Shown here one piece after another: positions 18,338-59,178 of a DNA stretch of 64,000 nucleotides. The position numbers were made by a program, and so were the translations under genes. The notes beneath the pieces are model-generated. The model did no database searches. It had not been told where the DNA came from and saw nothing but the letters and a program-made list of their open reading frames with translations. The stretch is from Bryum argenteum (Eukaryota; Streptophyta; Bryopsida; Bryales; Bryaceae). Within the stretch, counting starts at the first letter, position 1; each line of letters starts with the position of its first letter. Location of the stretch: assembly GCA_037043015.1 (NCBI GenBank), contig CM073321.1, positions 27,827,010 to 27,891,009 on the forward strand. Direction: 5' to 3'.

Positions 18338-18345
18338 TTCCCCGT
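18338..18345. repeat. target-site duplication of X1, right copy
   Basis: CCCCGTAG, identical to 6821-6828. Confidence 0.9.
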
Positions 18346-38850: not shown

Positions 38851-39705
38851 GAAATGCTTCACACTTGTGCGAATTCCTTTTTCTAAGCTTTAATTTAATT
38901 TATTAATATTCAAATTCCTTAGTTGGGACAATTAGGCCCATTCTTCCGGTTCCCGGAAAATCTATGTTCTCGGGTGGAGTTTTGTCTAGATGCCTTGGCG
39001 TTAATCTAGTTCATTCTAATTTAGTAATATTGATGGGTGCCAAAGTATTATGGCATATTTTCGAGCATGTTTTATGCCCCATTATTATTCATAGATTAAC
39101 AAATATACATGTGAGTGCTTAAGGTTGTTATAATTAATAATCAAAGGACTTAAGTAAACCATGCGGATGAATTTTCCGGATGAAAAGAGATTCATCCGTT
39201 TGGGATGGATGAAGATTTGTTCCATCCAATTAGGCCGAATTGGGTGAGAGAGAGAGTGGACTTAGGTTTTTCATATTCCGTGTGTGTGGGGGATCTAGGT
39301 TAGTTTTGTTGCAGTTTTTGGTGGATGTTTTTTGCGTATGTGTACGATTTAGGAAGAAAGAAAGAATTTTTGCAGGCAGCATGGAGGAAGTCGCAACTGG
39401 CTAAGGGGGTGGCTGAGAGGGACCACTAAGAGTCGGAAGGAGGGCTGCGATCCAGCTCCAGCATCGTCAACCACGCCGGAACGAAGTAGGACGGGGAAGA
39501 TCGAAGGTGGAGTAGTCGACAAAGCGAGCAGGGCGACGGCAATCAGCACCGCCAACCGGAGACGGCTGATCCGATATGATCGGCACCCTCGGTCGGATCA
39601 GTGCCGGCAATCAGCAACGACGAATCGACAGCACCAGAAGCAGGACAACGGCGATCACCGCCGGCAGATCAAGTACCGGCTGGCAACCCCGACAGCACCT
39701 TGGCG
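38851..39705. other. unassigned DNA left of X2
   Basis: I see no gene. The sequence changes from AT-rich to a GC-rich 39370-39705 portion with GGCGACGGC and GCCGGC words, which continues at 59179 on the far side of X2. Confidence 0.4.
39698..39705. repeat. target-site duplication of X2, left copy
   Basis: CCTTGGCG, repeated exactly at 59171-59178. Confidence 0.95.
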
Positions 39706-39727
39706 CAGGGTTGTCTTGCTAGACACA
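39706..39727 (+). repeat. X2 left terminal inverted repeat
   Basis: CAGGGTTGTCTT, two variable bases, then TAGACACA. It pairs with 59149-59170 with two mismatches. Confidence 0.95.
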
Positions 39728-40140
39728 GACGGACGTCAGACAGACACGACATGTCAGACAGACATTGAGCCTCAGAATGTCTAATAGAATCTACAGAATC
39801 TTTTTTTTACCCTGGATTTACCCTGTCCACGTTGCATCCTACGTGGCTACCACGTGGCATGTACAGCTCAGCAATACGGTTCGCGACCGCGCCACGTAGG
39901 ACTGGACCGGCGGTCGTGTCATCTAGACCGGCGGTCGCCTTGGCCGGACCGGCGGTCGACTTGGCTGGACCGGCGGTCGCCTTAGCGACCGACGATCGCC
40001 CAGGGTCGACCGACGATCGCCCATGGTCGACCGACGATCGCCCATGAGCGACCGACGATCGCCCATGGCGACCGGCGGTCTCACTGGACAGGCGGTCGCC
40101 TATTCTGGCCCCTGGACCGGTGGTCGCCTAGGCTGGCCTT
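39728..40140 (+). repeat. X2 left subterminal region with GCGACC array
   Basis: GACGTCAGACAGACA and ACATGTC words come first and have counterparts near the right end. CGCCACGTAGGA follows at about 39890. From 39900 come about a dozen GACCGGCGGTCGCC or CGACCGACGATCGCCC units in both orientations. Confidence 0.85.
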
Positions 40141-40541
40141 GCATTGGAGGCTTCCCCCGAGTAGAATAAGTAAATTTTTTTATCCCACATTATCCAAAAT
40201 TCTTCCTTTCACGTTTTTAAACGTAGATGAAGCATTAAGAATTCAAGATGAAACAAATTACAACAACCCACAAACCCCTGAAGAAAAGGCTAACATCAAC
40301 CATGAGGTTTGAAACTCATGTAACAAAAAATGTGGTGACATACATACGTGACTAGTGTAAAAAGGGAACATAATTATAAGAGTTGCAAAAATCTATTAGA
40401 TTTGGAACAATATGTCAAAAAGTAGATTGTATATATTGCAAGTATGAAATGTGAATTACATGGCTAAATGAGCACTCAATGACGTGACATGGTCATCCAA
40501 AGGAGTCTATGAATTGCAACAAGATATAATGATATTATAAA
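40141..40541. other. AT-rich stretch downstream of the kinase-like gene
   Basis: I see no gene or repeat. It lies between the left array and the 3' end of the minus-strand kinase-like gene. Confidence 0.5.
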
Positions 40542-42092
40542 CTAATAACTGTCCTCTCTAAATACAAGCTCCGGTGGAAGCATATGATATGGTTTCGCCA
40601 TCAAGCGGTTCACCACCTCCGAACAGGTCATTCTCTCATTTAATTCATGCCTGGTCATTGAGAACACCTTCGTTAGGAATGAATCTCGCACCGTCGAATT
40701 CGGTAATAATTCTTTGTCGAATTCGTTATACACACCAATCAGTTGGATGAGCTTGCCAACCGCATACGAATTTGATGCTACCGTGGTTGGATGTCGAAGT
40801 TCCTGGACGTTCAAATTTGTATCTGAACCTTCAGGTCCATAAGTATAGAACAACTCGGGCGCCACCCACCATCGACGTGTCATATCTTCTTTCTTTTTTT
40901 CCGTCGTCTGGTATCCGTAACGTGAAGGCTGTTGTTCTACTATACGAGATGCCATCCCCCAGTCACACACTCCAATACAAATCTTGGTTCCTCCGAAAGT
41001 TGGGAAATGCAATAGTATGTTCGAGGGGGATAGGTCGTTGTGAAGAACTCCCGTCTTATGCACGAGATTCATGATGTACACTAAACCCCAAGCTAATTTC
41101 ATCCTGTGCTGACGGAAAAGGGTAATTCTGAAAACCTCCTCTTGAGTGAGACTCGGAACTTCCTTCACTTTCGACCAGTGAAGATGTTTGTCGCCGACCT
41201 TCTCATCCAACTTCAACATCTCGTGTAGTGATCCCCCATTCCACCAATACGAGTAAGCTTCGAATGTCCTTGTATGCAACGCCCAAAACTTGATAATTCC
41301 TGGATGATTCAAAGGACATACAAGAGCTTCTGCAGCAGTCTCTATCCTCCTCTTCTGAAGATTCATATTCTTGGAAAGCTTTGCTGCAAACTCGACATTT
41401 TCTGGAACGTGGTCTACTCCAAGTATCTTCACCTTCCGCACCAGTCCATGGCCTCCCTCCATATTGCGGCCTGATAGAGCTTCTATCGTAGCGTCTTGAG
41501 GAATCCACACCACCCCCGACCCTGTGTCTCGTTCAAATGTGGCGCGCAAAGCGGTTTTTTCCCATGACTTCCCTCGGGTTTTATTCTTGCTAAGCTTTTG
41601 GATTGTGTGTTGCCACCAATCCATCTTGCGTTTAAACTGGTCCTCCTCTTGTGTTAGACGCCTCGTTCCAAATCGCTTCTTCCACAACTCCTTTACATTG
41701 AAGATGCATTGTTCAACTGTATTATCCATCCACAACCCGTATTGCGAATAATAATCCACATCTTGGTATTTCTCCGTTTCCTCCATGGCCTTCAAAATTA
41801 CTGCCGCCAATTTCTTCTTCAGTCTCTCTTTGCCCGTGCTAACATTCCTGAGGTAGTTGTGCTCTAGGAATTGAGCCTCCGTTTCCTCATACCAATCCAA
41901 ACATGCTTTTTCCGCAAACTTAGTATAATCTGTTATTGGGAATCCGGGCCTGTCTTCTTTTGGGTGTCTCCTCTTCCTCTTATGGCCTCCACTTCCACTA
42001 GGTTGTTCCCCTCCAACGTCTGGTGCAAATGTTTCGGGGGCATCCAAATCCCATGCTTGTTGTCCCTTCCCGTGCTTTCTGGATTTAGTCAT
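40542..42092 (-). CDS. protein-kinase-like cargo gene
   Basis: This 516-residue frame runs from the ATG at 42092 (MTKSRKHGK); the open frame upstream begins with TTG, which I reject. Residues 1-200 are a basic and tryptophan-rich region with no recognised domain. The C-terminal 300 residues read as a protein kinase. AAKLSK, at about 236, offers the ATP-binding lysine. NHPGIIKFWA and GGSLHEML follow, and then HNDLSPSNILL at about 351, with the catalytic aspartate and asparagine in place. DWG stands for DFG at about 377, and WWVAPEL for the APE motif. The key catalytic residues are present, so activity is possible. The glycine-rich loop is not obvious. Its promoter is shared head to head with the gene at 42729. 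X1 has no copy. A kinase encoded inside a hAT element is unusual; capture of a host gene is likely. Confidence 0.82.
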   Translation of the reverse strand: MTKSRKHGKGQQAWDLDAPETFAPDVGGEQPSGSGGHKRKRRHPKEDRPGFPITDYTKFAEKACLDWYEETEAQFLEHNYLRNVSTGKERLKKKLAAVILKAMEETEKYQDVDYYSQYGLWMDNTVEQCIFNVKELWKKRFGTRRLTQEEDQFKRKMDWWQHTIQKLSKNKTRGKSWEKTALRATFERDTGSGVVWIPQDATIEALSGRNMEGGHGLVRKVKILGVDHVPENVEFAAKLSKNMNLQKRRIETAAEALVCPLNHPGIIKFWALHTRTFEAYSYWWNGGSLHEMLKLDEKVGDKHLHWSKVKEVPSLTQEEVFRITLFRQHRMKLAWGLVYIMNLVHKTGVLHNDLSPSNILLHFPTFGGTKICIGVCDWGMASRIVEQQPSRYGYQTTEKKKEDMTRRWWVAPELFYTYGPEGSDTNLNVQELRHPTTVASNSYAVGKLIQLIGVYNEFDKELLPNSTVRDSFLTKVFSMTRHELNERMTCSEVVNRLMAKPYHMLPPELVFREDSY

Positions 42093-42728
42093 CGTCGAAA
42101 ATCTTGAAAAAAGCGGCAAAAAATCTCCCCCCTGCTATCAATGTGCACCAAACCCCAAAAACTCCTCAGACGACCCGGCAGTGCGCATCATTAAGACGAG
42201 CAAGGACACAGGGCGGAAGAGAATTCGGTAGCGGTTTGGGGAAAAGTAATAACAAACCCGCGCGTTGGGGTTTATATATCCTTGGAGACCGGCGGTCGCC
42301 CTACAATCGCCGCCCACCGGCGGTCGCCTCTGATCGCCCCACGGCGGTCGTCGCCCAGTCCCATTGTCACGACAGCTGCACCGGCGGTCGCCCTACGTCC
42401 CGAAGTCGCGGCAATTTGGACGGCGGTCGCCTGCGTCTCATTGTCGCGAACAATTTGCACCCGCCGGTCGCCCTACGCCCCATTGTCGCGATTAGCCGCA
42501 CCGACGGTCGTCGCTCTCACTTTGGACCGCGGTCGCCACGCAACGCGATACTCTATCTGGACCGCCGGTCGCCTTGATTTCTGGTCGCCCCGCGTATATA
42601 TTCCCCCATAGTACCTAAACTTGTTATTTGGGTTTACTGGCCTAGCGCGTTGTCTTACATCCATTGAATTGGCTGCATGCTCGTGCGGGGTAGGTAATAA
42701 CTATTTGCCATTTTTGGCTATTTCATCC
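42093..42728. promoter_or_regulatory. two-way promoter between kinase and RING genes, GCGACC array in the middle
   Basis: The array (42283-42590) has about ten GGCGGTCGCC words. A TATATAAA on the minus strand (about 42271-42279) points to the kinase, and TATATATT at about 42593 points to the RING gene. A GCGCGTTGTCTTACATCC near 42648, before the RING gene, resembles the GCGCATTGTCTGGTGTCGAC of other cargo promoters. Confidence 0.65.
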
Positions 42729-45057
42729 ATGGCTACTCTCGGCCAACTTCGGAAGGAAGAGAACGACAAGAAGAGGAAGAGGAAGGGCGCTCCACAACGG
42801 AAAAGATTACACTTGCTTCTGAATCCAAATAAGCTTGCCTTCAGAGGTTGGGAAGATGAACCAGATATGTGGACGATGGCCACTTGCGAATCGTTCATTG
42901 AATGGTGTCACATTGACAAGAAATTCCCTCTCTCTCGTCACTATTTTCACCGGCACACCAACAAGGCAAATCTTAAGTTTTGCGAATGCCCAAACTTCAA
43001 GCAACGATGCATTGAGGTTTACCAAGTCCTGTATGGCATGCCATGTATGGAGCGCAACGAGGTTCCATTGTTTCTTGCTCGTGGAGTATACGCCGAGGTT
43101 GCTCTTGGTAAACGAGTGGATTGGACAACTATCAAAGAGGGGAAGCATGTAACACGACCTTCAACGAGTGACATTCCGACAGGCATTCTAAGATTCCCTG
43201 ACGCTCCTAATGGTGGCATGGCGGTGATGAGGTCTATTACCAAGGCTATGGAAGAGGCTGCCCATCATAGTGCTACATCGGAAGAGGACGATGACTCGGA
43301 TGGTTCGCGGCCTCGTAAGGCGGTGCGTCAAGTTCGACAACCTCTTCCTCCCGCCAGCGTTGTGATTGTTGCGGATCATCGTCGTAATTTACCTGGCCGC
43401 GTTCCTGAAATAGGTGGCTCTCGCCCTCCAATAGCAAGTAATCATCCACCCGTAGTAGAGCCCCATGGTACTTGCATCTTACCATTGGAAGAACTTGACT
43501 CATCTTCTGATCTCAAAGCTCTTCTGAAGAGTAAAGACGACGTCATAGCAAGATTGGAAGCGGATCTCGAAAAAACACGAGCAATGTATGAGGAGAAGGT
43601 GAAAGAAGGGGAGCAGCTTTCCGTGGAATATGCACGCATGCGCGAGAAGATGCAAGAACTATCTCACGCACGTAACATTCGTGGAGATGTAGAGAAATCT
43701 GACATGGCGGATGTTGATAGAGTTGTCTTCAACCTTACGAGAGGACTTGGCATTTGGAGAAATGTCACCGCAACGCCCTACATTGCGCCGTCTGTGAAAG
43801 CTCAGCCATGTGTTGTTAATATGTCGGGCCTCGAACGAGAAGAAGATGTACGATGTGATTCTCGGGATTCTTTATCTTTACCTTTATTGTTCCCCCTATC
43901 CGTAATCCCCCTTTCATGTCGTCGATGGATACAACTCCTTATTAAAGGAAAAGCTACAAAATCGCAAGCCCGTTTGGAGCGATTTGTCGCCACTTACTAC
44001 CATTGGAAGGTGGCATGTATACTTTCGGTGGATAGAGGGAGACAAGTTGCGGCGGAGTGGAGAAGATCGATAAGAATTTTACTAGTGGATTTGGTCGGCG
44101 AACGTTTGGTATGACCTCGTGGCCGAGTGTGGATACATTGTTTGATAATCTTCCTATGATGGACATCAAGATGCAAGATGACACTTCTACAGAGGTTGTA
44201 GATTGGAGCAAGGCCGGGTGGAATTTCAAACACCACATGTCGGCACATGTTAATGTAGAATCCAAGACATTATTGTGGCCCAACCCTCCGCAGTTTGTAT
44301 TGGATCACTCTCCGTGTCCCATATGCCTAAATCCATTTGGACCTGAGGGTGGATGGGCTTTAGGCTCTTGTGTCCATATGTATCAATCGCAGTGTCTTTT
44401 AGTTCATTGTTTGACTCAAAGTCGTTGTGCTATATGCAAAGCGCCTTTTCACGAGCGGTTCTACGAGATGTTCAATCTAAGAACTTATATGCCGCCTTCT
44501 TGTGAACACAATGCTGAGACTACTGACGAGGTTCGATTATGGGTAAAGACCTTATCTGGAGTTGGCGTAGAGGTGAACATGATCTCGAGAAGAGTACTCC
44601 TAGCTCCCAATTGAATTGGGAGACTGACCCAAACGAGATTCTAAGAGTTGCTCCAATACTTGCCGGACACGGTCCACAGCATGAGGGTAATCGGATGTTC
44701 TTCTTCCAATGCCTTGGAGGCTATTTTGATGTGAGCTCTAATACATTCAAGTGGGGGCCCCATCCAATGGGACATCGATGGAATCAATATGGGAAGAAAG
44801 TAACCGACGGTGAAGGTCGTGCCTCCATGGAAGATTTGGAAGAGTGTCAATATGCTGAGTCTACTTGGGGGCCACGATACCAGTCTCAAGCTCTAGACTA
44901 TTTACTGGATGTACATAGTCCCCTCACAAGAAGGACTTTGCAAGACTTGAAAGACTCTAGAGTTTTAGATCTGATCTTAAATGCAGATGGTCCATTCAAT
45001 CGAACTCGTGCAAAGCGCAAACTTCTTGTTGGAGAATGCTCCAACCCTCGACCCTAG
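42729..45057 (+). CDS. WCH-domain / coiled-coil / RING-like cargo gene, frame disturbed
   Basis: From ATG 42729 come a lysine/arginine leader, then the WCH domain (AFRGWEDE, SFIEWCHIDKKFPLSRH, NKANLKFCECPNF, QRCIEVYQVLYG), VDWTTIKEG, an acidic linker, and a coiled coil at 43500-43680 (LKSKDDVIARLEADLEKTR). A RING-like motif follows at about 44308-44450: CPIC, CVHMYQSQC and CAIC. The second histidine expected in RING-H2 reads glutamine. The last part (44540-45057) has the motifs GHGPQHEGNRMFFFQCLGG and KWGPHPMGHRW. The three parts lie in different frames, changing near 44050 and 44530, so there are either unrecognised introns or frameshifts. A ubiquitin-ligase role is possible from the family but the ligand loss makes it uncertain. 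Confidence 0.68.
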
Positions 45058-45479
45058 TGAATGATAATTACGATATTGTGAATCCATACACTCCAAAGAT
45101 AGCGTATGGTTTTAGCTATATAGGAATATATTCCATTATAGTATTATCGAGTGGTAGCTTTTTGCGCAACAATGTATCTCATTTCCTATTGTACTACTTT
45201 TTGCATCGATTAAATCAATGGTATGTATTTGGTTCGCTCCTTTGCTTGTGGTCTATCGATTGTACTTTGTCACTTTTATTGTATCTTACATCTTCATAGT
45301 CCATATAACCCGCCCAACCCCTTGTACCAATGCACAAACACGTACTTTACGCATGATGAAAGGTAAAAACAAACTTCCATATATAAAGAGTATGCGAAAA
45401 AGTACATAGAAGAAATTACGTACACTTTCCCTACACCTAAATAACGTAAATCAAATATCGTTTGGTGAATGTTGGGGGT
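45058..45479. other. noncoding stretch between convergent cargo genes
   Basis: I see no gene, terminator or repeat. The RING gene (plus) and the next cargo gene (minus) end into it. Confidence 0.5.
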
Positions 45480-46821
45480 GTAAGTCCATCGCCTCTACGT
45501 TAAGAATCTTCAACTTTTTCCTTGCCCTTTGAAAAAAGTGATCGTTGCGGTTCCAAATCAACGTCGATTGCGTTTATGTTGATGTCATCTTTTGCGTTAC
45601 TTTTACGATGAGCCCACTCTGCCCATGCGTCCTCAAATCGAGCATTCTCCTCAGCTACACGTAGTTGCTTTGCTTTACATTCTGGTCTTCACTCCATTTC
45701 ACCAGCCTCTTTAATTTGTCAACTTCCTCTGGAGTCTTGCCATACTTACCCGCTAATGCCAAATCCCGAATGCGTAGCATCTCTTTATCTACCTCTAGAG
45801 CAATAGATTCTTCAATATCCGTCAACTTATCCCTCCTCTCAGCTAGGACCCCTTCCAGGTAATTATGTTTAGCTGTCCAAAACTCTACGTAGTCTTCTAC
45901 GGAAAAAATTTGTTTGAATTTTTCTTCTCAAAAAACTTCTCCTTAGCCTCTTTTCGTAGCACAAGCATGGTCTCCATGTCAGCTATGTGGTCTAGAGCTT
46001 TTTCGAAAACCTCCCGACATTCTTCTTGTACATCGTATGGTGTAGAAAGGGCTCTTTCTTTGAGGGCTTCCAATTCCTTTCTATTCTGCGATGAAATCCA
46101 ATTCGATGCATGTGACTCTACCTAAATTGTGCAAAATGATCAAAGTATCCATGGCTTCGGATAATCTTCCACCCACTTTTCGGAATGGATTTACCTCAAA
46201 GGATATTGCTTCAATCCAATGCAGTGGAGGACTAGTTGGTTCATCGAGCTCGTATTCGTGTGTGTGTTCATCCTCCGAGGATTCAGAAGAAGACCCTGCT
46301 GTGTAAAATTCCGCGTCGGCCTTAGGACTCATAGGTACCATTCCAATTCCATCTCCTTCAATAGTCTTTGATGTCTCTCCAACCTCTATTGGTTCGGTCT
46401 TCTCTTGCATAGGCAAACGTGGATGCGTCCACCAATGCACCTCCTTCCCGAGAATCATTTCCGCATATGCCATTTGTGCCAAAAAGTAGGGAACCTCATA
46501 TTTAAAAATATGGTTGTTACCGTATATCATATGCCAAGCATAGATGCATATCGCTTTGAAATCGTAATGATGGCACTCTCGGAGGTTAGCTTCATTCTTG
46601 TGCCGATGAATATTGTGCCAATGTAGAGGAAAGAGCTTATTGATGTGGCACCACTCCACATATTTCTCACATATGGCAAAAGACCACGGCGCCGTCTCTT
46701 CCTCCCATCCTCTAAACGCTACTATCTTTGGATTCTTCAAGATGTCCCTGCGCTTCTTCTCAATCTGACCTCGGTCATGGCGAACCATGGATGTACCCGC
46801 TACAACGGGTAGTGCCTCCAT
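45480..46821 (-). CDS. WCH-domain / coiled-coil cargo gene, one or more frame breaks
   Basis: I start at the ATG at 46821 (MEALPVVAG) because the X1 copy begins at the same place after a poly-T run. IEKKRRDILKNPKI leads into the WCH domain (AFRGWEEE, YVEWCHINKLFPLHWH, NEANLRECHHYDF, IYAWHMIYG, QMAYAEMILG), then an acidic linker with SSSESSEDEH. At about 46085 the open frame ends, but in the next frame a clear coiled coil continues (RKELEALKERAL, CREVFEKALDHIADMETMLV, then YLEGVLAERRDKLTDIEESI and GKTPEEVDKLKRLVKW) down to about 45650. A frameshift or a missed intron at about 46085 explains this. Function unknown. Confidence 0.7.
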
Positions 46822-46849
46822 AAGAAAGATTCGTAGAAAAACGCAAAGT

Positions 46850-47220
46850 CCCTCTACGAGCGAGCAAGCAGCAACTCTGAAGTCGATACTAGTCAATGCG
46901 CGAAAAGGAGGAACTCGCAAAGTGTGAAAAATGGATCGCCGTCGTCGCGTTTTAAGCGATGATAAGGCGACCGGCGGTCTACAAAATGTGCATGCACCGC
47001 CCGATCGCCATTGGTCCGGCTATCGCCCTATCTGGACCGCCCGATCGCCCCGGCGACAAGCGTTCGCCCATGGCCCGGACCGGCGGTCGCCCTAGCGACC
47101 GACGTTATAAAGCTGGACCGGCGGTTGCCCTAGCGACCGACGATCGCCCAAAGCTGGACCGCCGATCGCCCTAGCGACCGACGTTCGCCCATGAGCTGAA
47201 TCGGCGGTCGCCCTATTTCA
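46850..47220 (-). promoter_or_regulatory. GCGACC array and start-region motif of the 45480-46821 gene
   Basis: GACCGGCGGTCGCC, CGACCGACGATCGCCC and related words fill about 46965-47215. Nearer the gene on the minus strand is CGCGCATTGACTAGTATCGA at about 46882-46901 with GTTGCTGCTTGCTCGC after it. Confidence 0.65.
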
Positions 47221-48534
47221 CCTATTTGTGTTGAATGCGAGGGCATCAGGTTTCATAGCAGCTCCTACGAGGATGAGAATCATGAGATGAGGATGAATAT
47301 TGGATGGGGGAGGAATAAAAGAGCCCTTTAGTTTATAATGTATTAATTTTAAAAATTAGGAATGTATGCATAGGGTAGGAATTTCGGATCGTGGGTCCCA
47401 TAATTCCCATTTTATGATCATTCAATTCCTAAGAAATGGACAAGAGATGTGTAAATGGATAATATTGAATGGGAGGAAGGATGGGGTGAGAGTTTTTCGT
47501 CCTCTTTGTAGGCATGAATGGTATATATTATTTTGTATGGTGTATATTTTAAGAAGTCATATCGTGCCTAATCAGTTATAATAATTGATAAAATGTGAAA
47601 TCATTTATAGAGCATCAGCCTCTTCAATGCATGAAAACACTTTAATGAATCTAACGATTCAATACCTACAATCTAAGCATGTAATCCTAGGTAGTCAATT
47701 CCTAGCATCTAAATAAGATACCATTTACATAAAATCGCACCTCTTATTTTAACATCACATTCAAGAACAATTTCTAGTTTCTTTTTATATCAAAGTGGAG
47801 CCTTTAATATATTATAAGATCTCCGTATATAATATCCGACTGATAGATTATCCTTGCAATGAGTTTATGGGCTCATAACATTATGAAATTGGTTAAATTG
47901 AGTGGGGGGAGGAATTTGAAAATTTTGGCAAGTCAAAAATAAGGTCTTGAAATACAATTAAGTGAATGGAATTAGTGCATATACCCTAGAAAGCACTAAG
48001 AGAAATAGTTGCTTACCAAATTAAAAGGTGATATATCATGACATATTATATGTTTGGAGAAAAAATGAGTGACCAGTATATAAAGGTAAATATTTGAAGT
48101 GAAGAAGACTAATGATTTGCGGACATTCTTATCAACCCCCATTCGAGCGTACTTTTGGAACCAATATTTGATGAGTATTTTATGTTGAGAATTCTGAGAA
48201 TGTTGAAAATTATAATTTTGTAAATTGTGATTAAACATGTATCGATCTAAATCCATATTACACCACAAGAGTATCCACTGAGAATAAAATCATTTTTCAT
48301 GTATCATGGTCACCGCTCTTGGCAAAATGCCCATGACCATGAGAATCATTTTCAATTGTGAATGAGATATAGGAAGAACGGAGTGGGAATGAGAGGGAAT
48401 GAGGGGGTGATGAGGGGGGATGAGGGGGATTGAAGGGGGGAATGGGGGAGATGCTTGAATCGGTTAATTCAAAATTTGAATATTGCATAAAGAGGATCCA
48501 AGAAAAAAGAGCGAAAGCTCTCGAGAAGTCGCCC
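47221..48534. other. AT-rich noncoding stretch shared with X1, plus a G-rich tract
   Basis: The first kilobase matches X1 16092-16970 in inverse orientation. I see no gene. CCCATGACCATG near 48330 recalls the CATG-rich repeat at 30035. The G-rich tract is listed separately. Confidence 0.5.
48403..48449 (+). other. G-quadruplex-prone tract
   Basis: Five runs of five or six G separated by 3-6 bases (GGGGGTGATGA, GGGGGGATGA, GGGGGATTGAA, GGGGGGAAT, GGGGG). Confidence 0.7.
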
Positions 48535-48876
48535 TGCAGAGTGCCGGTCGCCCCGAAGCGCTCCGCTGAGGCTGGATCGAAACTCTTCTGAAGCTGCACC
48601 GGCGGTCGCCCCGGAGGTCTGCTGCAGCTGGACCGGCGGTCGCCCTAACGATGTCGCCGTGACACCGCCGGTCGCCCTGCCACAGGAGGTTAAATACAAT
48701 CGTAATTGGCCGTAGTCGTCACTTTTCAGTCCACGTGTCGTGGTGTTGCGCATTGTCTGGTGTCGACTCAAAGTTGCCACTTGCTTGCTCGATTGGAGGC
48801 CAACGTGGACTGCACTATTTTTGGTGTTTTGTATCTAACATCATATCATAGCGGCATTTCCGTGATCGGAGGTAAC
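48535..48876 (+). promoter_or_regulatory. GCGACC array and start-region motif of the 48877 gene
   Basis: GGTCGCCC words at 48540-48680, TTAAATAC near 48691, then TTGCGCATTGTCTGGTGTCG beginning at 48746, and TTGCCACTTGCTTGCTCGA. The order is as in the X1 block at 15747-16060. Confidence 0.65.
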
Positions 48877-50460
48877 AATGACTACAATTGCGGAACGTAA
48901 AATAGTACTCGGGGAGCGACGCAAGAAGAGAGGAAAAACACAGAAGAGGAATCACCGTATTCTCCAAGATGCCACTCAACGCGCTTTTCGGGGTGGGAGA
49001 CCGAAGAGGGTGTGTGGAGTCGGACAATGATGAAGAATTACATCGCTTTGGTGCCACATCGCAAGTTGTTTCCACACTCTCGACATGAGACGCACTTGAA
49101 ATTAAATGCCGCAACTGCACTATTGTAAGCATGACGAATTCGTGCAACGATGTATTGAAGTGTGGAGGTTCCTTTATAAAGGCAAGAATGTCACCAAGAA
49201 CGAGGTTTCGTATCATATTGCTCAAATGGTGTATGCAGAGGTAATATTGGAGAAAGTGGTGGATTGGAGCTCAATGAAAAAATCGCCTCAATTCTTCCTT
49301 CCAACCAAGCAAGATATTCCAAGAGCCCCATTGAGAGAAAACCCACGAGAAGGACTTACGGCAGCAAGGCATCGGAAAGATGGGGATGCTGATGATGTGT
49401 ATGTTTGGGTAAATCCTAATTCTGATGAAGAAGAGGTTAAGGAGAGGGAGCATCATACTCCTCTTGTAGAAGGTTCTATTGGTGGCGTCGAACACTTTCA
49501 TGTGGGTGAAACAAGCGTGCAAGATTTGGATGTGATTGATGCACCTGTGAAGCACATCGAGGACCTACGAATAGAAGGAGAAGCGGATGTCATTGAATAC
49601 ATGGAGGTTGAAGCAATGTTTGGTGCTTGTACTTTGGGTCCACCCGAAGTTATAGTTCGGCCCGCTATAAGCGCCTCTCCTCAAACAAATGTTAGCGTAG
49701 AGGATGGGACTCTAGAATATCCAATGGAAACGATTGAACAACCGAAGAAGAGAAGGAAATGAAGAAGTAGAGCTGGAGAAGGAAGTTCAAGTAGTCTTCA
49801 AAGCGAAACGCCCGAATGAAAACGATGATTCGTACATGAAGTTGTTGAACAAGGCTTTTGAGAATTATTCATATTTGTTTCATGCTTTGTCATACGAACG
49901 GGCAAAGTGTGTTGAACTCCAACATGACATAGAGGTAATCAAGGATGCAAAAAAGAAGATCTAAGAGGAGGCGACGAATGTTCTCCCAGCTCTGGTTGCA
50001 TCAGATCAGGTCGATTATGAGGAAGAGCTCATAAAGAAGACGAAAAATTTCGAGGATGTGCATAGGAGATACAAGCGCGTCGACGAATGGTTTGTGGTCA
50101 ATGATTGGGGTCGCGAGAAGGATTTTATGGTTGAAGGAGCCAAGGACCAAGGTCATTTTGAGAAGGAGCTAAAGGAACTCATTTCGGCATGCGATGCCTT
50201 GAGAGCTGAGATCGAAAGGGTGAACCTAGCATCAATAAGATTGAAGGGGAACAAGGAAAAGTTAGTCCTCAATGGAATAGATGGAACCGTGGATATTGCA
50301 GAAGAGGGTCAAAGTTCACAGCGCAATGAAACAACTGAGGAGTTGGTCAAAAAGCTACTTGTGCTCATGAGAAGAGGAGAGGTTTAAATGCAAGGATCAA
50401 AGATCTATGTATTGCAAATAAGACAAAGGAGAAATGTCGGAGCTGGTACCATCTAAAAAA
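48877..50460 (+). pseudogene. WCH-domain / coiled-coil cargo gene, X2 copy, decayed
   Basis: ATG 48877 opens MTTIAERKIVLGERR. The WCH domain reads through AFRGWETE, then loses frame around WCH itself and resumes at LHYCKHDEF, QRCIEVWRFLYKG and QMVYAEVILEKVVDWSS. An acidic region (EEEVKEREHH) and a long charged coiled coil follow (ERAKCVELQHDIEVIKDAK, then KELISACDALRAEIERV) to about 50390. At least three frame breaks. The X1 relative at 14038-15663 keeps the domain but lost its start codon, so neither copy is whole. Confidence 0.75.
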
Positions 50461-51159
50461 AATCTAAAGTACAATGGAAGAAGATTAGAGTAAGCGGAAT
50501 CAAGTTTTAGAAAGACGTTGGCGTGTTGGTTATATCCATTTACTTTATTTTATTTGGGAACTGAAAGTTGGGAGATAAGTGCTAGGCTGGATGTTATACA
50601 ATGTATCTTTTTGATTATATGATATGTTTTTACTAGTAAGATACCCGTTGAACGATGTTATGTTTATTATTTGTATATATGCGCACGATGTTATTTTAAT
50701 CATCTTGTTTATTCTTTTTATTTGTTTATTTTTTATTTGAAATGCATGATTTGGAAATATCTAAAAAAAGGTTCTTAGAATGGTATGTAGGTTCGTAATT
50801 ATTTAAGTTGGTAGGTTTGTATGTTGGTAGGTTGGTGGATACTTTGGATAGTGGTCTTTTAGAAAATTATGTCGTGTATACCATTCCATATGTATATATA
50901 ATGATATTGAATTTTGGAAAGCTTTGATTAGTATTAATCCACGATGAAGTAATGATAAATAATTTGTAAAAATTTGGAATCGTAACTAAGTTGTTGAAGT
51001 TACGTATAAATATATGGTGGGATTTAGTTGCAAGTATTTAGAGTCAATGAATATATTTACAAACCCCCCAGAACCTCGAAAGGCAATGATTCGTACATGA
51101 TTTCAAATATGCAAAATAAGATTTGTAGCAAATGGGGGGGGAAGCAGATATTCGCGCCC
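50461..51159. other. AT-rich stretch, no gene seen
   Basis: Nothing recognisable apart from short GGTAGGTTTG-type direct repeats near 50805-50835. X1 lacks this stretch. Confidence 0.5.
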
Positions 51160-51480
51160 ATCACGTAGACCGCCGGTCGCCCTGTCACCGTCGTTCGCTG
51201 GATCGGCGGTCGCCCTAGCGACCGAAAATCGCCCTAGCGACCGACGATCGCCCATCGCCTGGACCGGCGGTCGCCCCAGCAAGAGGGTGCGCGGAGGCTC
51301 GCGGACACTATTCTCCTTGGTGCACCCATGACGTAGACCGCCGGTCGCCCTGTCACAGTCGTTCGCTGGATCGGCGGTCGCCCTAGCGACCGACGATCGC
51401 CCATCAGCTGGATCGGCGGTCGCCCTAGCGACCGACGTTCGTCCATCCGCTGTATTGGCGGGCGCGGGATTTGGAGGTTT
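51160..51480. repeat. GCGACC array built from a duplicated unit of about 170 bases
   Basis: ACGTAGACCGCCGGTCGCCC at about 51164 recurs at about 51331, with the following CGTTCGCTGGATCGGCGG also repeated. Unlike the other arrays, no gene starts beside it. It may mark a lost cargo gene or an old element end. Confidence 0.75.
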
Positions 51481-52892
<1,412 letters not shown>

Positions 52893-52984
52893 GTTTTGAT
52901 GGTTCCAAATACTTGCCACCAAAAGTCATTATATACATTCGTTACTACTTTGAAAATTCTGACACAAACGCTGGGAGGAAGGTT

Positions 52985-53340
52985 AGTACTTGCTCACGAG
53001 GTGGACCGGCGGTCGCCCAGTGACCTCCGGTCGCCCACCAGCTGGATCGGCGGTCGCGCGATCCAGAGGTCGCGCCCCCACGCATACGTCGCGCCCTCCC
53101 ACTTGGTGGTCGCGCCCTCTGACCATTGGTCGCAGACCAGGTGGACCGGCGGTCGCCAATCCGCTGGATCGGCGGTCGCCCTGGCGACCGACGTTCGCCC
53201 ATCGGGTGGATCGGCGGTCGCCCTAGAACCAGGGTTACATATACGCGCGCGGACACCGCCAGTCGCCATTTCTCACCTCCACGTGTCGGGCCTTGCGCAT
53301 TGTCTGGTGTCGACCTCTGGTTGCCGCCTGCTTGTTCGAG
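52985..53340 (+). promoter_or_regulatory. GCGACC array and start-region motif of the 53508 gene
   Basis: GACCGGCGGTCGCCC words and several GGTCGCGCCC variants occupy 53003-53225. A CATATAC box lies near 53237, and TTGCGCATTGTCTGGTGTCG begins at 53293, followed by GTTGCCGCCTGCTTG. Confidence 0.65.
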
Positions 53341-53507
53341 CGCTAGAGCGTGCGGTGATTGGCACACACGTGCCTCACGTGTGCATTTCACACATACATG
53401 CTGCCCGATTTTCGAGTTTTCTAAATTTTGTGTTAGTCCACGGAATAGATATAACTTTTTTTGAGTTAGTTTCAAAACTTTCTTCCTTCGTTAGCATTTC
53501 GGTGACC

Positions 53508-54212
53508 ATGACGCCTAGCCAGGAGCGGAAGATAGCGAGTGACAAGGACCGCAAGAGGAAAGGAAAGATGCAAAGGAGATTTCACAAGATTCTCATAGAT
53601 CCCACGCTACAGGCTTTTCCGGGGTGGGCGCAAGTAGAGGAACCGTGGACCCTTAAGACTTGCAAGTGGTACATTGCTTGGTGCCACATCGGCCATTTGT
53701 TTCCACACTATCGTCACGAGTTTCATCGCCGCCTGAATTGCGCAAATTTGCACTATTGCCATCACGATGAATTTGTGCAACGATGCATTGAAGTGTGGAA
53801 GTTATTCTACGCCGGTGTGCATGTGGTGAGCAACGAGGTTTCGTACAACATAGCACAAATGGTGTACGCGGAGGTAATTTTGCAGAGGGACGTGGATTGG
53901 AGGACGTTTAAAAAATCCCCTCAAACAATTAGGCCAACAGAACCCCATATTCCGCGAGCTCCTTATCCAGCGGCCAACCCACGAGAAGGGCTTACAACAC
54001 CTAGGGGTTACAAAGGAGGAATCCCTGATGAGGACATAGTTTGGTCAGATTCGGAAGAAGAAGGGACCGAAAGGCGAGAAGTGGATGAAGGGGAGCCGAA
54101 CCAAACGATGGAGGAAGGTCATGCACATTTTGATGAAGGGGGGCCAAGCCAAGTTTGTACAGAAGGGGGGCCAAGCCAACTTTACAATGAAGGGGGCCCA
54201 AGCGAAGAATGA
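53508..54212 (+). CDS. WCH-domain protein with acidic GGPSQ tail (intact copy)
   Basis: A 234-residue uninterrupted protein from ATG 53508 (MTPSQERKIAS). Residues 1-35 are basic with HKILIDPT. Residues 37-135 form the WCH domain: AFPGWAQVEEPW, KWYIAWCHIGHLFPHYRH, NCANLHYCHHDEF, QRCIEVWKLFYAG, QMVYAEVILQRDVDW. The histidines and cysteines (WCH, RH, H, C.H, RC) could bind a metal. The C-terminal 90 residues are acidic and end in three GGPSQ/E repeats. No known domain comes to mind. This is the best-preserved member of the family and the one to use as a query. A DNA- or RNA-binding role is a guess from the basic leader and Cys/His content. The gene lies directly upstream of the transposase. Confidence 0.8.
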   Translation: MTPSQERKIASDKDRKRKGKMQRRFHKILIDPTLQAFPGWAQVEEPWTLKTCKWYIAWCHIGHLFPHYRHEFHRRLNCANLHYCHHDEFVQRCIEVWKLFYAGVHVVSNEVSYNIAQMVYAEVILQRDVDWRTFKKSPQTIRPTEPHIPRAPYPAANPREGLTTPRGYKGGIPDEDIVWSDSEEEGTERREVDEGEPNQTMEEGHAHFDEGGPSQVCTEGGPSQLYNEGGPSEE

Positions 54213-54759
54213 CTGGTAGTTAGTTAATCACGTTTTTTTAGCAGTTGTAGAAAAGTAGTGTACTCAATATCAAACACTAAGTGCAATTGCCATTTTGTAT
54301 GCAAAAACGTTGAATGAGAATATGAAGTTTTTGATTTTCTTCAATTTAAATATTCTTGGTGAATGAAATCTCACTATTGCATGTGGTATAAGCATAAAGG
54401 AAAAACCTTCAATGTCCGAGGTACCATCATTGATACATGGCAATTTTTATCATTCTTAATTATTTAGGAAACGTGGATTGAGCAATATTCATCACTTTAT
54501 TTTTTGGATTTGGAGGAAGAGAAGTTAAAACTCTAGTTTCTAATATGAGTCCTTATTGTTCTCTCTCTTGCCTTCCCATGTTCCCTTTATTATTATTAAT
54601 TTTTTTTCTTTTAAAAGAAAAGCATTATTGCGAATCAAACATTTTTGAGCCACATGGTCTCCGGGATTCTAGTTAATAATAGCTGTACTACGTGGACGGT
54701 GGACCATGGAATTTCACTTGGAGAGTAAAGTGCTCTTCGTCCGAACAATCTGTCATCGC
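54213..54759. other. noncoding stretch between the acidic WCH gene and the transposase promoter
   Basis: I see no gene. The first 400 bases match X1 12480-12880 inverted. Confidence 0.6.
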
Positions 54760-54930
54760 TAAGGCGACCGGCGGTCCAACTGGGTAGGGCTAGGGCAACC
54801 GGCGGTCCAGCTAGCGCGATGAAGTCAAGGCCAGGGCGACCGCCGGTTCACATGGCGCGACAGCGTTGTTGTTAGGGCGACCGCCGATCTGGCTGTGGCG
54901 ACCGCCGATCTGGCTGTGGAGTATATAAGG
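54760..54930 (+). promoter_or_regulatory. transposase promoter: GCGACC array plus TATA box
   Basis: Five or six GGCGACCGGCGG or GCGACCGCCGAT words end at about 54910, and TATATAAG follows at 54922-54929, 170 bases before the chosen ATG. The proximity suggests the transposase may bind and regulate its own promoter, as is known for some DNA transposons. Confidence 0.7.
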
Positions 54931-55098
54931 AGTCGTTCACGGGCTCGAAGTCACTTTCCTTTGCGCTTGGCCCGTTGTCTTGGGTCTCCCCATGAGAAGC
55001 CCCCTGCTCGGTCTATAGGTGCAAAGAGTAACTTGAGCCTTGTAGTGCGTGTTGTCGTCACCGGTTTCATTGCAGCGGCGGAGGTGCGGTTCCAGAAC

Positions 55099-57468
55099 AT
55101 GGAGCATTCTTCCCAATCCAACGGGGTACCAGATAATAGAAGAGACACTCGCAAATGGGACGAGTGGCTACGAGTATCCACGGAACGGAACGACAAGCCA
55201 AATACTCGCGTGTGCTTATTCTGTGGGAAAAGCACAGTCTTTGTAAGGCAACGAGCATTAGCTCATTTCGGATATCCTCACAATTCCCCATTACCCCGGT
55301 GTACGAGGTTGCCCCGTGGAGTTCTCGAGCTATTCCGTGACTGCGGAGGGATAGTTCCAAAGAACAACATTTCTTATGCGGATGTTGTTCCAGACTCACG
55401 AGTGGATGCCGACATACCATATGCGGCAAGGGAAACTACGGATAACATAGATACTCCTCGCATCGACTCTGTAGAAGTACCATCCCCTAACCTAAGGTCT
55501 AATCAGGTGCCATCCTCTAACAAGGGGAGTCATGGCAGCAATGGACAAAGGATCTCTACACTCTCTAGTGGACGGCGACATGGGCAAAGGAGTATGGAGG
55601 ATAGTTTTGATCTTGCCATTAGGCAAAATTTGGATGCAAAGTGGGCTTCATTTATCTATGAGGCAAACATTGCATTCAATGTCGTACGACATTCAGCATT
55701 CATAAGTGCCGTTCAAGAGACAGCAAAGGCCGGTATTGGTAGATATCAACCACCCTCGTATCATGCTATTAGGACTACGATGCTCGAGGCGAAGAAGGCG
55801 GCTGTGCAAAGGTCGGTAGAGGATCGAACAAAACTTTCTATCGAGAAGTACGGAGGAACAATATGCTCAGATGGGTGGTCCGATGTCACAAGCAGACCAC
55901 TCATTAACATGATGCTCGTTTGCCCAGTGGGAGAGGTGTTTTTGGGATCAATGGATACTATAGGGAAGAAAAAGGACATTGCTTATGTGGCAAATGAAAT
56001 GGCGAAGTACATAGAGGAGGTTGGACCACAAAACATCGTTAAGATATGCACAGACAATGCAAGCTCCATGTTAGGTGCTGTGAAGAAGTTGCAGATAGAC
56101 TATCTTCACTTGTATGGACAAGGTTGTGCGGCACATATTCTAGACCTCCTTCTGGAAGATTGGGGGAAAGAGGCGTGGGTATTGCAATTGGTGGAGCAAG
56201 CCAAGAGAGTGTGCACATTTATTAAGGGGTCCCACGTCCCCCTTGCTCTATTCAGGAAGTACTCGCCGAAGCTGCAGCTCAAGGTACCACCCCAGACTGG
56301 ATTTGCAACAAACTACTTGATGATAGAGCGGTTGTTAAAGCTACAACAACCTCTGAACAACATGGTGATCGATGCGGAGTGGCATGTGTTTGTCCAAACA
56401 TTGTTCAACAGGCAAAACAGTCACCAGTTACAGACAAAGGCAAGGAATGTGCGGATTAGCATTAGGAGCGATGAGTTCTGGGAGAATTGTACGAAGTTTG
56501 TCAAAGTAGTTGAACCAGTACTCCTAGCTCTTCGGGAGTTCGACGGGGAAGTACCAGCCATGCCCAGGGCGTATGTGATCATGTCGGACCTTAAGGAACA
56601 CGTGTTCTCTTTGCGTGAACCTCCATTCGAACTATCCCCCGACATTGCTACAAAATACGAGGATGCATTTCAAAAACGATGGGAGATGATGCTCACAGAC
56701 CTCCACTATGCAGCAGCTTTGTTGAACCCTTATTTGACAAATATTGGAGCAATTCAAAACACTGGAGAAGCAAGAAGAGCTTTAAACCGGGTCATAAGGA
56801 AGCTTAGCGCCCCAATGGGAGTGGTCTATGAGGAAGTGGTGCGGGAACTCCTACAATATGAGGAGAGGACGGGTCCATTTAACACCAATTCAGAGGCCCC
56901 TGATCCAGCTCACTGTGACCTGTTACCACATCAATGGTGGCATCAAGTCGGGGGGAATGCCTTGCCAAAAATTGCAAAGAGGATTTTGGCATTGACATGT
57001 TCAGCTTCATCATGTGAGAGGAATTGGAGCATGTACTCTTTCGTGCACAACAAAGTGAGGAATCGGTTGTCAACTTCCAAAGCAGAGGACCTTGTGTACA
57101 TCTATGCGAACGCCAAACTCGAGCGCCAGAAACGTACCAGATCGCCGAGAACGTGGTACGAAAATTACTTAGAAGAAGAGGAATCTGACGAAGAAGACTA
57201 TGTACCCGACAATGAATGGGATGATGGTGTATTCATGGATAACTCGGAGGCGGATGACGAGAATTATGTCAATGACGGTAGCGAACACGACGACCTAGAG
57301 AATTGGAACGACAACGAAGGAAACATGACTATTCATGTCAAGGACCCGTTTGAGTTCGATGACGACCAGGATGTTCCACAACTGCCTCGCCGCCAGTTTG
57401 CGGTATTTGCCAGCGACACGAAGGAGAAGGAGTGGCAAATTTACAACTCCAAGAGAGTACCTGCCTAG
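55099..57468 (+). CDS. hAT transposase of X2
   Basis: 789 residues from ATG 55099 (MEHSSQSNG). The frame is open further upstream but that part overlaps the promoter array and starts with GTG. A BED-type zinc finger lies around residues 18-55 (W, CLFCGKS, HFGYPH). The RNase-H-like core (DUF659 region) has CSDGWSDVTSRP, CTDNASSML and GCAAHILDLLLEDWGKEAW. The C-terminal hAT dimerisation region holds LPHQWWHQVGGNALPKIA and SSCERNWSMYSFVHNKVRNRL, with the catalytic glutamate in CERNW. The three acidic catalytic positions are present and there is no stop, so this could be functional. It ends in a strongly acidic tail. Its frame overlaps the start of ORF2. Compared with X3 it is clearly younger. 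Confidence 0.93.
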   Translation: MEHSSQSNGVPDNRRDTRKWDEWLRVSTERNDKPNTRVCLFCGKSTVFVRQRALAHFGYPHNSPLPRCTRLPRGVLELFRDCGGIVPKNNISYADVVPDSRVDADIPYAARETTDNIDTPRIDSVEVPSPNLRSNQVPSSNKGSHGSNGQRISTLSSGRRHGQRSMEDSFDLAIRQNLDAKWASFIYEANIAFNVVRHSAFISAVQETAKAGIGRYQPPSYHAIRTTMLEAKKAAVQRSVEDRTKLSIEKYGGTICSDGWSDVTSRPLINMMLVCPVGEVFLGSMDTIGKKKDIAYVANEMAKYIEEVGPQNIVKICTDNASSMLGAVKKLQIDYLHLYGQGCAAHILDLLLEDWGKEAWVLQLVEQAKRVCTFIKGSHVPLALFRKYSPKLQLKVPPQTGFATNYLMIERLLKLQQPLNNMVIDAEWHVFVQTLFNRQNSHQLQTKARNVRISIRSDEFWENCTKFVKVVEPVLLALREFDGEVPAMPRAYVIMSDLKEHVFSLREPPFELSPDIATKYEDAFQKRWEMMLTDLHYAAALLNPYLTNIGAIQNTGEARRALNRVIRKLSAPMGVVYEEVVRELLQYEERTGPFNTNSEAPDPAHCDLLPHQWWHQVGGNALPKIAKRILALTCSASSCERNWSMYSFVHNKVRNRLSTSKAEDLVYIYANAKLERQKRTRSPRTWYENYLEEEESDEEDYVPDNEWDDGVFMDNSEADDENYVNDGSEHDDLENWNDNEGNMTIHVKDPFEFDDDQDVPQLPRRQFAVFASDTKEKEWQIYNSKRVPA

Positions 57469-57491
57469 CGAAACAAGACTTGGTAAACCGG

Positions 57492-58250
57492 ATGGATGAA
57501 GAGAACATTGGTCCACTTAAAGGCAGCCCACACTCTAACAACGACGATAAACTTGAGAGTGTGAAGGGCACGGTTACCACGACAGGAGTTCAAATGGACC
57601 AAATTAAAGTGGAACCTAACGATGTATCCAATTCAGGTTGCATGGAAGTGGGGTCACCTAGAGTTTCAACCATTCGATCAAGGAATTCAACTCTTAACGG
57701 AGATGACTCCGATGTACCTCTACAACAATTGTTCCCAAGGGTTACCCAACCTAAAGGGGCCCATACAACTCGTATGGTATTGCCCAAGATGAAGGTCAAG
57801 ATAGAACCAACAAGTCCAACATGCAACCGGGCATTGGCAGTGGCACGAGACGTCGGGCCATCTACACAACCTCGCAATCGTATTACACGAGGCCAGAAGC
57901 GTTTGAGGAAGGCACACGATCGACGATGTCGGAAAGGGGCACGTGTACATGAAGAAGTCCATGCTGGGATTGCTTCATCCAATAATCCGAATACACGTAC
58001 AATGCGCCATCTACCACTGAACGCAAACGGGATCACTAATGCTTCACGGCCCTTGAAGCGCCTCGTTCTGATGAACAAGAAAACAACCACGGACACGGAA
58101 TTGCGCAATTTGGCGAGTGAGGTTGAGTGTGAAGTACGCAATGAGACAGAGGAGGATGAAGACGAGGATGGCGACCAAAGCACCGATGACTCTCTAGGTG
58201 AAACCGATCCAAACGCAGATGAAGTGTCAGCGACGATACGTATACATTGA
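57492..58250 (+). CDS. ORF2: acidic protein with SUMO-type motifs, next to the transposase
   Basis: 252 residues from the ATG at 57492; the open frame reaches back to 57432, overlapping the transposase end by 37 bases in another frame. It could be a separate protein or be joined to the transposase by splicing. Two psi-K-x-E motifs are visible (IKVEP and VKIEPTSP), and the second is an exact psiKxExxSP phosphorylation-dependent sumoylation pattern. A basic segment (RGQKRLRKAHDRRCRKG) may be a nuclear signal. The tail is a D/E run. The C-terminal half is almost unchanged in X1, and a diverged relative lies at 61700-62054. No known domain recognised. Confidence 0.7.
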   Translation: MDEENIGPLKGSPHSNNDDKLESVKGTVTTTGVQMDQIKVEPNDVSNSGCMEVGSPRVSTIRSRNSTLNGDDSDVPLQQLFPRVTQPKGAHTTRMVLPKMKVKIEPTSPTCNRALAVARDVGPSTQPRNRITRGQKRLRKAHDRRCRKGARVHEEVHAGIASSNNPNTRTMRHLPLNANGITNASRPLKRLVLMNKKTTTDTELRNLASEVECEVRNETEEDEDEDGDQSTDDSLGETDPNADEVSATIRIH

Positions 58251-58614
58251 AGGATACCTAAAGACGGGTTATTAGAATTTTGTTATTTTGGATTGGAAGC
58301 ACGAAGTTCATTGTTAGTACTCATACAATACTACAATGTCTCGCAAGTAGGGCAACTATTAGCTTACAATACTTGGGTATCCTAGTATGTTTCGGGAGTA
58401 TAATATATATATAGTTTGGTATATGTAATAGTTACATCATATATATGAATACTATGATTATAGACATGCGCAAATTTGTACTATGAAATGCACCATTGAC
58501 CTTGTTTCCGATAAAATGGTATTCATAAAAATGCTTTGAAGCTCATTTTGTACCAATATGGATATATTTTTCTTGTTTCATATACAACCATAGTCTTTGG
58601 TCACATGGGTGCTA
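58251..58614. other. AT-rich stretch downstream of ORF2
   Basis: I see no gene. It matches X1 11266-11618 inverted. Confidence 0.6.
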
Positions 58615-59148
58615 CTCAGGCGACCGCCCGATAGCCATAAGCGACCGACGACGCTCGGGCGATCGTCGGTCGCTAAGTACTAGACCCGCGGTCGCCTAAT
58701 AGCGGTTGCCAAGGCGACCGCCGATCGCTATAAGCAACCGACGACGCGCAGGCGGGCGATCGTCGGCCGCCAAGATTGGGCCGCGATCGCCTACTAGCGG
58801 TTGCTAGGGCGACCGCACGGTCTCCATCTTCGACCGCCGGTCGCCTTCTCATGGCGGCCAGGGCGTCGGCGGTCGCGAGAGGGCGACCGACGTTCGCCGG
58901 TGCGACCGCCGATCGCCTAGCGAGGTCGCCACCGCGATCGCTCGCCACCGTGATCGCCCATCGCGACGCGTGTTTTTGATTTTCCACGTCATTATCAACC
59001 CTACGCCACGTAGGAAAATAGCTTTTTACCTCAAGGTAAATCTCAGCAAGTTTTTTACTATGTAATTTTTGGTACCGTCGACATTTTCGTCGACTCGACG
59101 TCTAACAGACATGTCCAATACGACAATTCAGACGGACATTCCCAAAAT
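58615..59148 (+). repeat. X2 right subterminal region
   Basis: GCGACC/GGTCGCC words fill 58618-58975. Then come TTCCACGTCATTATCAACCC, CTACGCCACGTAGGA, AGCTTTTTACCTCAA and finally GACGTCTAACAGACATGTCC, the inverted counterpart of the left subterminal words. Confidence 0.88.
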
Positions 59149-59170
59149 TGTGTCTAATAAGACAACCCTG
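59149..59170 (-). repeat. X2 right terminal inverted repeat
   Basis: Ends GTCTAATAAGACAACCCTG; pairs with 39706-39727. Confidence 0.95.
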
Positions 59171-59178
59171 CCTTGGCG
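59171..59178. repeat. target-site duplication of X2, right copy
   Basis: CCTTGGCG, identical to 39698-39705. Confidence 0.95.

Follow-up and report, generated by a model that had tools for sequence, protein, structure and literature searches.

A 19.5-kb hAT element of Bryum argenteum, one of a giant transposon family, carries accessory genes behind shared palindromic motif arrays and may be self-regulating

Whether a hAT transposon can grow to nearly 20 kb and carry a gene set of its own is the question raised by a 64,000-nucleotide stretch of the moss Bryum argenteum (the window; C1:27827010-27891009, C1 being contig CM073321.1 of the 258.8-Mb, 25-contig assembly GCA_037043015.1). A first-pass annotation had recognized at window 39706-59170 a complete hAT element with a kinase and further genes of its own family, and had pointed out that hAT elements usually measure a few kilobases. 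Published sizes agree with it: Tol1 measures 4.4 kb and Tol2 4.7 kb (PMC10175614), and the longest plant hAT consensus among 276 sequences surveyed is 7,144 bp, with no moss hAT in the accessible part of that survey (PMC6027215). We find a mobile unit with hAT ends, target-site duplications, a transposase and cargo in fixed order, and arrays of one palindromic motif at six gene starts and at both ends. The 19.5-kb element is probably one full-length member of a giant hAT family that amplified fairly recently.

The 19,465-bp element is bounded by 22-bp terminal inverted repeats (TIRs) that agree at 20 of 22 positions, the left reading CAGGGTTGTCTTGCTAGACACA and the right being CAGGGTTGTCTTATTAGACACA in reverse complement, and CCTTGGCG stands exactly on both sides as an 8-bp duplication. 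CAGGGTTG, present at both ends, fits the hAT TIR type [T/C]AGNGNNG (PMC6027215). When the two flanks were joined at one duplication and searched against the whole assembly, they matched at 100% each side of their own insertion only. Since the flanks are single-copy and the inside is repeated, the borders of the 19.5-kb element are exact; the same query found no empty site of the window element in this one assembly. Tandem repeats of the TTTTTGGAATC type adjoin the right side at window 59400-59600. The open transposase frame matches PF04937 (DUF659) at 1.9e-36 and PF05699 (Dimer_Tnp_hAT) at 4.3e-06 (26.9 bits against a cut-off of 21.4), and the motifs CSDGWSD, CTDNASS and CERNWS contain what we take to be its candidate D-D-E residues. 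A sequence search found no relative of the transposase in PDB, and its structure model, with a predicted local distance difference test (pLDDT) score of 33.7, was not used further. Sequence and frame checks confirm that inverted termini, exact duplication and open transposase lie in the one annotated interval, and by its duplication, TIR type and dimerization domain the unit is a hAT element. It resembles plant hATs of the Ac/Ds type in its 8-bp duplications, short TIRs and DUF659 plus hAT dimerization domain, but differs from them in size (about 19.5 kb versus 7,144 bp), in its several accessory genes and in its promoter arrays.

The termini recur many times in the genome. A genome-wide scan for the 20-base terminal pattern CAGGGTTGTCTTNNTAGACA gave 353 exact matches (180 + 173) versus 0 + 0 for the reversed control, and the longer end patterns are repeated as given in Table 1. 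From 100 matches listed per end, facing left and right ends less than 100 kb apart were paired. A listed right end faces 71 of the 100 left ends, 29 being without a listed partner, and the pairs measure 2.2-12.1 kb (30), 17.6-22.7 kb (25) or 24-78 kb (16); we read the 17.6-22.7-kb pairs as full-length and the 2.2-12.1-kb pairs as non-autonomous derivatives. Three full-size copies were read end to end, namely the window copy, C8:15163840 (19,468 bp, with its own exact duplication) and C1:26022983 (19,540 bp), the latter two being collinear with the first at 2.7% substitutions over aligned bases and 3.4% substitutions, respectively. Duplications were checked in all 25 pairs of 17.6-22.7 kb and in 8 others: 25 of these 33 pairs have exact 8-bp duplications, three match at 7/8 and five fail. 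Among the five are C1:19243813, whose duplication is exact if its altered end is taken 1 bp shorter, and the two copies with swapped duplications described below. The search for inverted termini with duplications that the annotation had proposed thus yields 25 pairs in the full-size class, 19 of them with exact 8 bp and one at 7/8, while 1,056 wrong flank pairings never matched at more than 6/8 bases.

An artefact, in which assembly or nesting had placed unrelated repeats between two hAT ends, might be suspected from the systematic miscalls that the assembly seems to carry, from the 16 of 71 pairs at 24-78 kb, which may hold nested inserts or mispairings, and from a copia-type insert in a related element of the window. 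Against it stand the two further full copies, collinear over about 19.5 kb elsewhere in the genome, the size peak at 17.6-22.7 kb, the exact duplications in most checked pairs and the unique flanks, and we regard such an origin as very improbable. Chance pairing is excluded by the terminal-pattern counts against their empty control and by the wrong flank pairings, and artefactual or chance pairing was ruled out on these two controls together with the unique flanks.

Some copies also bear on the history of the chromosomes. The first 30.6 Mb of C1 make up about 12% of the assembly and contain at least 100 of the 353 terminal matches, which suggests an enrichment of the family in that region. The full-size copies C1:10218197-10238168 and C1:10436905-10456397, which lie 0.2 Mb apart and are oppositely oriented, have swapped duplications (TTCACACG and CCGGTCAG); an inversion between both copies, or a misassembly, explains both, and the family may therefore have rearranged its host chromosome. 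At the full-size copy C1:26669416-26689050, flank and duplication (ACCGGCGGTCGCCCT) resemble a motif array, so that this copy seems to have inserted into the array of another.

The cargo belongs to these ends. In DNA searches of the genome, the best 40 of 170 candidates were scored for the kinase, 40 of 299 for g4 and 40 of 290 for the transposase (gene names as in Table 1). Respectively 17, 22 and 10 of the scored matches lie inside listed TIR pairs shorter than 40 kb, every one of them oriented as in the window copy. The kinase lies 712-899 bp from the left end in all 17 cases, g4 8.4-9.4 kb from it in 19 of 22 (the remaining three at 12.0, 12.4 and 19.3 kb, in pairs of 22.6-35.3 kb), and the transposase 13.7-15.9 kb from it in 8 of 10 (the others at 24.0 and 28.5 kb, in pairs of 28.0 and 32.5 kb). 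Even among the 23 kinase matches outside the listed pairs, 12 lie within 398-955 bp of a listed left terminus. Among the matches listed, 22 of the 25 full-size pairs hold at least one of the three genes and four hold all three; C1:5007260, C1:21435767 and C10:12536209 hold none, and each has a g5 match inside. The annotation had allowed that other copies of the termini might never enclose cargo, which these enclosed matches contradict, and its description of a cargo-bearing 19.5-kb hAT with its own gene family stands, with 25 TIR pairs in the size class and 22 of them enclosing listed genes.

Two past insertions can be read from the sequence. A 5.7-kb derivative at C1:1074950-1080681 sits within the kinase gene of a different, older copy (88-90% identity); its flanks cover kinase 496-1551 and 1-504, their overlap consisting of the 8-bp duplication CTTCACAA and one further base. 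Within the window itself, positions 6829-18339 hold an older element of the same lineage, 11.5 kb long and with CCCCGTAG duplicated on both sides, that carries relatives of g3 (47% at the amino acid level), g4, g5 (74%) and the C-terminal frame (74-85%). It is directly adjoined at 5718-6827 and 18341-19213 by transposase-like matches of 35-36% identity, which indicates that it entered the transposase gene of another, distant hAT. A copia-type reverse transcriptase (RVT_2) lies inside it at 8071-9168.

The family of genes noted among the cargo is borne out, since g2, g3, g4 and g5 share one N-terminal domain of about 110 residues, with the conserved cysteine/histidine (C/H) pattern WCHI...H..H...N.ANL..C...F...C and a basic N-terminus; the g2 and g4 frames are broken in the window copy. 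Blocks 41-60 and 81-130 of the g5 structure model are fairly confident (mean pLDDT 78-87), with weaker confidence between them and poor confidence after residue 140. DNA binding by g2-g5 is a guess, because no library or fold match names the shared domain. Behind g2 lies a RING-H2-like part whose frames overlap in the window copy and which in C1:26022983 is a single 274-amino-acid (aa) frame. In the kinase, HNDLSPSN and DWG are presumably the catalytic and metal-binding loops, and in PHROGs the kinase matched three families, one of serine-threonine kinases (3e-05) and two without a name. A viral origin of the cargo was dropped as a lead, since neither the kinase nor the g2-g5 alignment had a relative in viral contigs.

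What joins these genes to one another and to the termini is a palindromic motif. The element contains 54 copies of the half-site GGCGAYCG or its complement, where 50 first-order Markov simulations gave a mean of 0.68 and a maximum of 3. All 54 sites fall into eight arrays, of which two are subterminal, five lie upstream of six gene starts (kinase and g2, which are divergent, having one in common) and one has no gene. An array edge lies 144-285 bp upstream of each of the six starts. When the six internal arrays were placed at random, none of 200,000 placements satisfied six genes (<300 bp upstream) and 8 satisfied five. The eight arrays are conserved in position in all three full copies, with 58 sites in the C8 copy and 54 in C1:26022983. 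Upstream of 11 g5-like genes (55-74% identity; the 55% member is closer to g4, and a twelfth stretch, of 53 bases, was left uncounted), inspection by eye finds arrays, often decayed, accompanied by a TATA-like stretch and by a block resembling GCGCATTGT, the exact motif counts being 0-11. Such shared arrays probably turn the "cargo" into a self-regulating gene set.

Alternatively, the transposase itself might bind the arrays, those at promoters having arisen by duplication, and g2-g5 might act otherwise, for instance, alongside the kinase and RING protein, through direct inhibition of the host's silencing proteins. Transposases of Ac and En/Spm bind subterminal repeats. Subterminal repeats also matter for another hAT transposase, Kat1 (PMC4763223), and two of the eight arrays are subterminal; the other six are internal, five of them <300 bp upstream of gene starts, which exceeds the needs of end recognition. 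We consider this explanation rather unlikely.

Divergence between paralogues points to long-term purifying selection on the shared domain. Four g4/g5 pairs have ratios of nonsynonymous to synonymous substitution rates (dN/dS) of 0.20-0.25 with a third-position excess, as exemplified by new g4 versus new g5 (dN/dS 0.25; differences by codon position 26, 27, 48). In g2 and g3 pairs synonymous sites are mostly saturated, and the same third-position excess is seen. The g4/g5 values and the excess together suggest that the domain has been constrained over the long term, in a lineage that kept moving.

In the mechanism that we propose, the transposase would cut and paste the whole 19.5-kb unit, and the 2-12-kb derivatives with the same ends would have been moved in trans. 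The g2-g5 proteins, with their C/H pattern and basic N-terminus, would bind the CpG-rich arrays and, much as VANC proteins do, would activate all genes and both ends together or shield them from silencing; the kinase and the RING-like protein may modulate either the host's silencing or the regulators of the element itself. By analogy, we favor with moderate confidence the reading that this giant hAT family and its accessory genes form a self-regulating, possibly anti-silencing, VANC-like regulon. The fuller scenario, in which a hAT lineage became a giant multi-gene element whose four paralogous regulators, kinase and RING-type protein act on the motif and so control expression and the accessibility of the ends, is more tentative, and we put its chances a little short of even.

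A number of observations weigh against this overall reading. Its proteins are poorly placed in known families: at E<=0.1, Pfam gave no family for g3, the g4 fragment or g5, and for g2 only a sub-cut-off glutaredoxin match; among g2, g3 and g5, NCBIfam gave sub-cut-off matches for the first two and none for g5; PHROGs had no match for g5 or for the RING part; the g5 model had no PDB fold match at E<=0.001; and the RING-like part scores 26.0 bits with zf-RING_2 against a Pfam cut-off of 27.3. The array at 51174-51424 adjoins no gene, and the motif seems stable between diverged families, unlike VANC targets. Two of the 25 full-size pairs, C1:21435767 and C1:26022983, are without duplications, unexplained. 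The transposase is frame-shifted in both other full copies (C8:15163840 and C1:26022983), so that of the apparent self-mobilization suggested in the first-pass annotation the open frame of the window copy stands, and mobility itself is to be inferred from sequence.

The young copies likewise fail to display the constraint that was expected, their changes being near neutral. Eight loci repeating an already counted element were left out of this comparison, and six out of another. The ratio of nonsynonymous to synonymous polymorphism (pN/pS) of the kinase is 0.56 over 29 young-copy rows, with variable columns of 117, 112 and 122 by codon position, and 0.62 with CWG codons removed (70, 70, 71). 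Corresponding values before and after removal are 0.51 and 0.58 for the C-terminal frame (12 rows), 0.66 and 0.65 for g3 (4 rows) and 0.60 and 0.64 for g5 (3 rows), and they rise from 0.67 to 1.00 for g2 and from 0.80 to 1.35 for the transposase (3 rows each). Fourteen rows of g5 relatives at 65-88% identity give a dN/dS of about 0.63 without codon periodicity, and new versus old comparisons within one gene, less constrained than the g4/g5 pairs, give 0.43 for g4 and 0.65 for g5. To us, the near-neutral change in young copies looks like decay after insertion.

Differences among the three full copies cluster at CWG sites: of 720 differing positions, 194 lie no more than one base from a majority CWG, whereas among all positions the figure is 1,124 of 17,296 (6.5%), arrays and an AT run being left out of the count. 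At three of the places shown, GCTG is exchanged for CTTTG, and in one of them C1:26022983 reads as C8. We take this clustering to be CHG methylation seen as deamination, base-calling error, or both, which means that a number of frame-shifts may not be real, perhaps including the ones that affect g2 and g4 in the window copy.

Near-neutral change in young copies, and the lack of any function assigned to g2-g5 by family searches, would also suit a real giant hAT whose extra genes are captured host passengers without a role in the life of the element. Such passengers would hardly keep a single orientation in all 17, 22 and 10 enclosed matches, lie behind the element's own arrays at each of six gene starts, or show the constraint seen between g4/g5 paralogues, and the diverged element at 6829-18339 retains relatives of g3, g4, g5 and the C-terminal frame. 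Passenger capture was set aside as the leading reading on fixed orientation, paralogue constraint and arrays at gene starts, and we judge it unlikely.

The self-regulating hAT can be compared with several known systems. A search of titles and abstract openings in the open-access literature, with preprints outside its scope, found no plant hAT of such size and gene content, and the word hAT is absent from the accessible main text of a review of giant eukaryotic transposons (PMC6431247). A rice DNA transposon of unspecified superfamily reaches 6,721 bp with one additional "transposable element (TE)-associated" frame (PMC4423477). The claim that such an element is undescribed therefore holds for plants within that search, and has to be tempered by a fungal precedent, ToxhAT, which is 14.3 kb long with cargo, has 74-bp TIRs and lacks target-site duplications (PMC6737239). 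Both have a hAT-type transposase and cargo genes between TIRs; unlike ToxhAT, the window element has 22-bp TIRs and an exact 8-bp duplication, exists in dozens of copies and has one motif common to its promoters, and the accessible account of ToxhAT names no cargo gene in common with it.

The closest functional likeness is to VANC of the Arabidopsis VANDAL elements, which binds short motifs in the non-coding parts and ends of its elements and removes methylation (PMC5735166). In both systems the element encodes a protein family and carries repeats of a short motif in its non-coding regions and at its ends, but VANDALs belong to another, Mutator-like superfamily, and the motif of the window element seems conserved whereas the VANC motif changes fast. 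Family searches, made without a direct comparison with a VANC sequence, suggest no homology of g2-g5 to VANC. Starships are likewise large cargo-bearing units, and their enzyme class differs from the hAT transposase. Teratorn, also large and cargo-bearing, is a 180-kb piggyBac-herpesvirus fusion (PMC10175614), whereas the cargo described here is without relatives in viral contigs.

Table 1. Features of the giant hAT element, in window coordinates
Feature	Position	Strand	Basis or remark
Left target-site duplication CCTTGGCG	39698..39705	.	Sequence and duplication check
Left terminal inverted repeat, 22 bp, 20/22 versus right	39706..39727	+	30-base left end, <=3 mismatches, 117 places in genome search
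Left subterminal array, 8 sites	39932..40100	.	Position conserved in two other full copies
Protein kinase, 516 aa, open	40542..42092	-	Pfam Pkinase 1.1e-10, above cut-off; best 40 of 170 genome candidates scored
Array between divergent kinase and g2, 7 sites	42293..42573	.	
g2: shared domain and coiled-coil-like region, first of several overlapping frames	42729..44114	+	Coiled coil by eye
RING-H2-like part following g2, frames overlapping in window copy	44111..45057	+	zf-RING_2 sub-cut-off
g3: shared-domain protein, 246 aa	46081..46821	-	Frame check and domain alignment
Array upstream of g3, 7 sites	46966..47212	.	
Array upstream of g4, 4 sites	48545..48676	.	
g4: shared-domain gene, frame-shifted in window copy, longer open frames in some others	48878..50390	+	
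Array without recognized gene adjoining, 8 sites	51174..51424	.	
Array upstream of g5, 6 sites	53010..53222	.	
g5: shared-domain protein, 234 aa	53508..54212	+	Best 150 of 1,268 candidates scored
Array upstream of transposase gene, 4 sites	54763..54904	.	
hAT transposase, 789 aa, open	55099..57468	+	DUF659 and Dimer_Tnp_hAT
252-aa frame after transposase	57492..58250	+	In C8 copy, a 522-aa frame runs from transposase into this frame
Right subterminal array, 10 sites	58619..58917	.	Also in two other full copies
Right terminal inverted repeat	59149..59170	-	36-base right end, <=3 mismatches, 205 places in genome search
Right target-site duplication CCTTGGCG	59171..59178	.	Sequence and duplication check

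Outside the element, window 34032-34227 matches bacterial-type large-subunit ribosomal RNA and is probably an insert of organelle DNA, and window 34553-36553 holds a 666-aa open frame with DUF7869 (3.6e-41). The assembly includes at least eleven large contigs, 7.0-44.1 Mb in length, and a 28-base pattern of the plant-type telomere repeat TTTAGGG gave 997 + 224 exact matches, overlaps counted, with 0 in the control.

The shared palindromic arrays before the main genes and at both ends are newly found here. A hAT that moves about 20 kb with fixed accessory genes widens the known carrying range of cut-and-paste transposons. The family may be a hAT counterpart of the VANC anti-silencing systems, and it supplies a testable motif and protein set.

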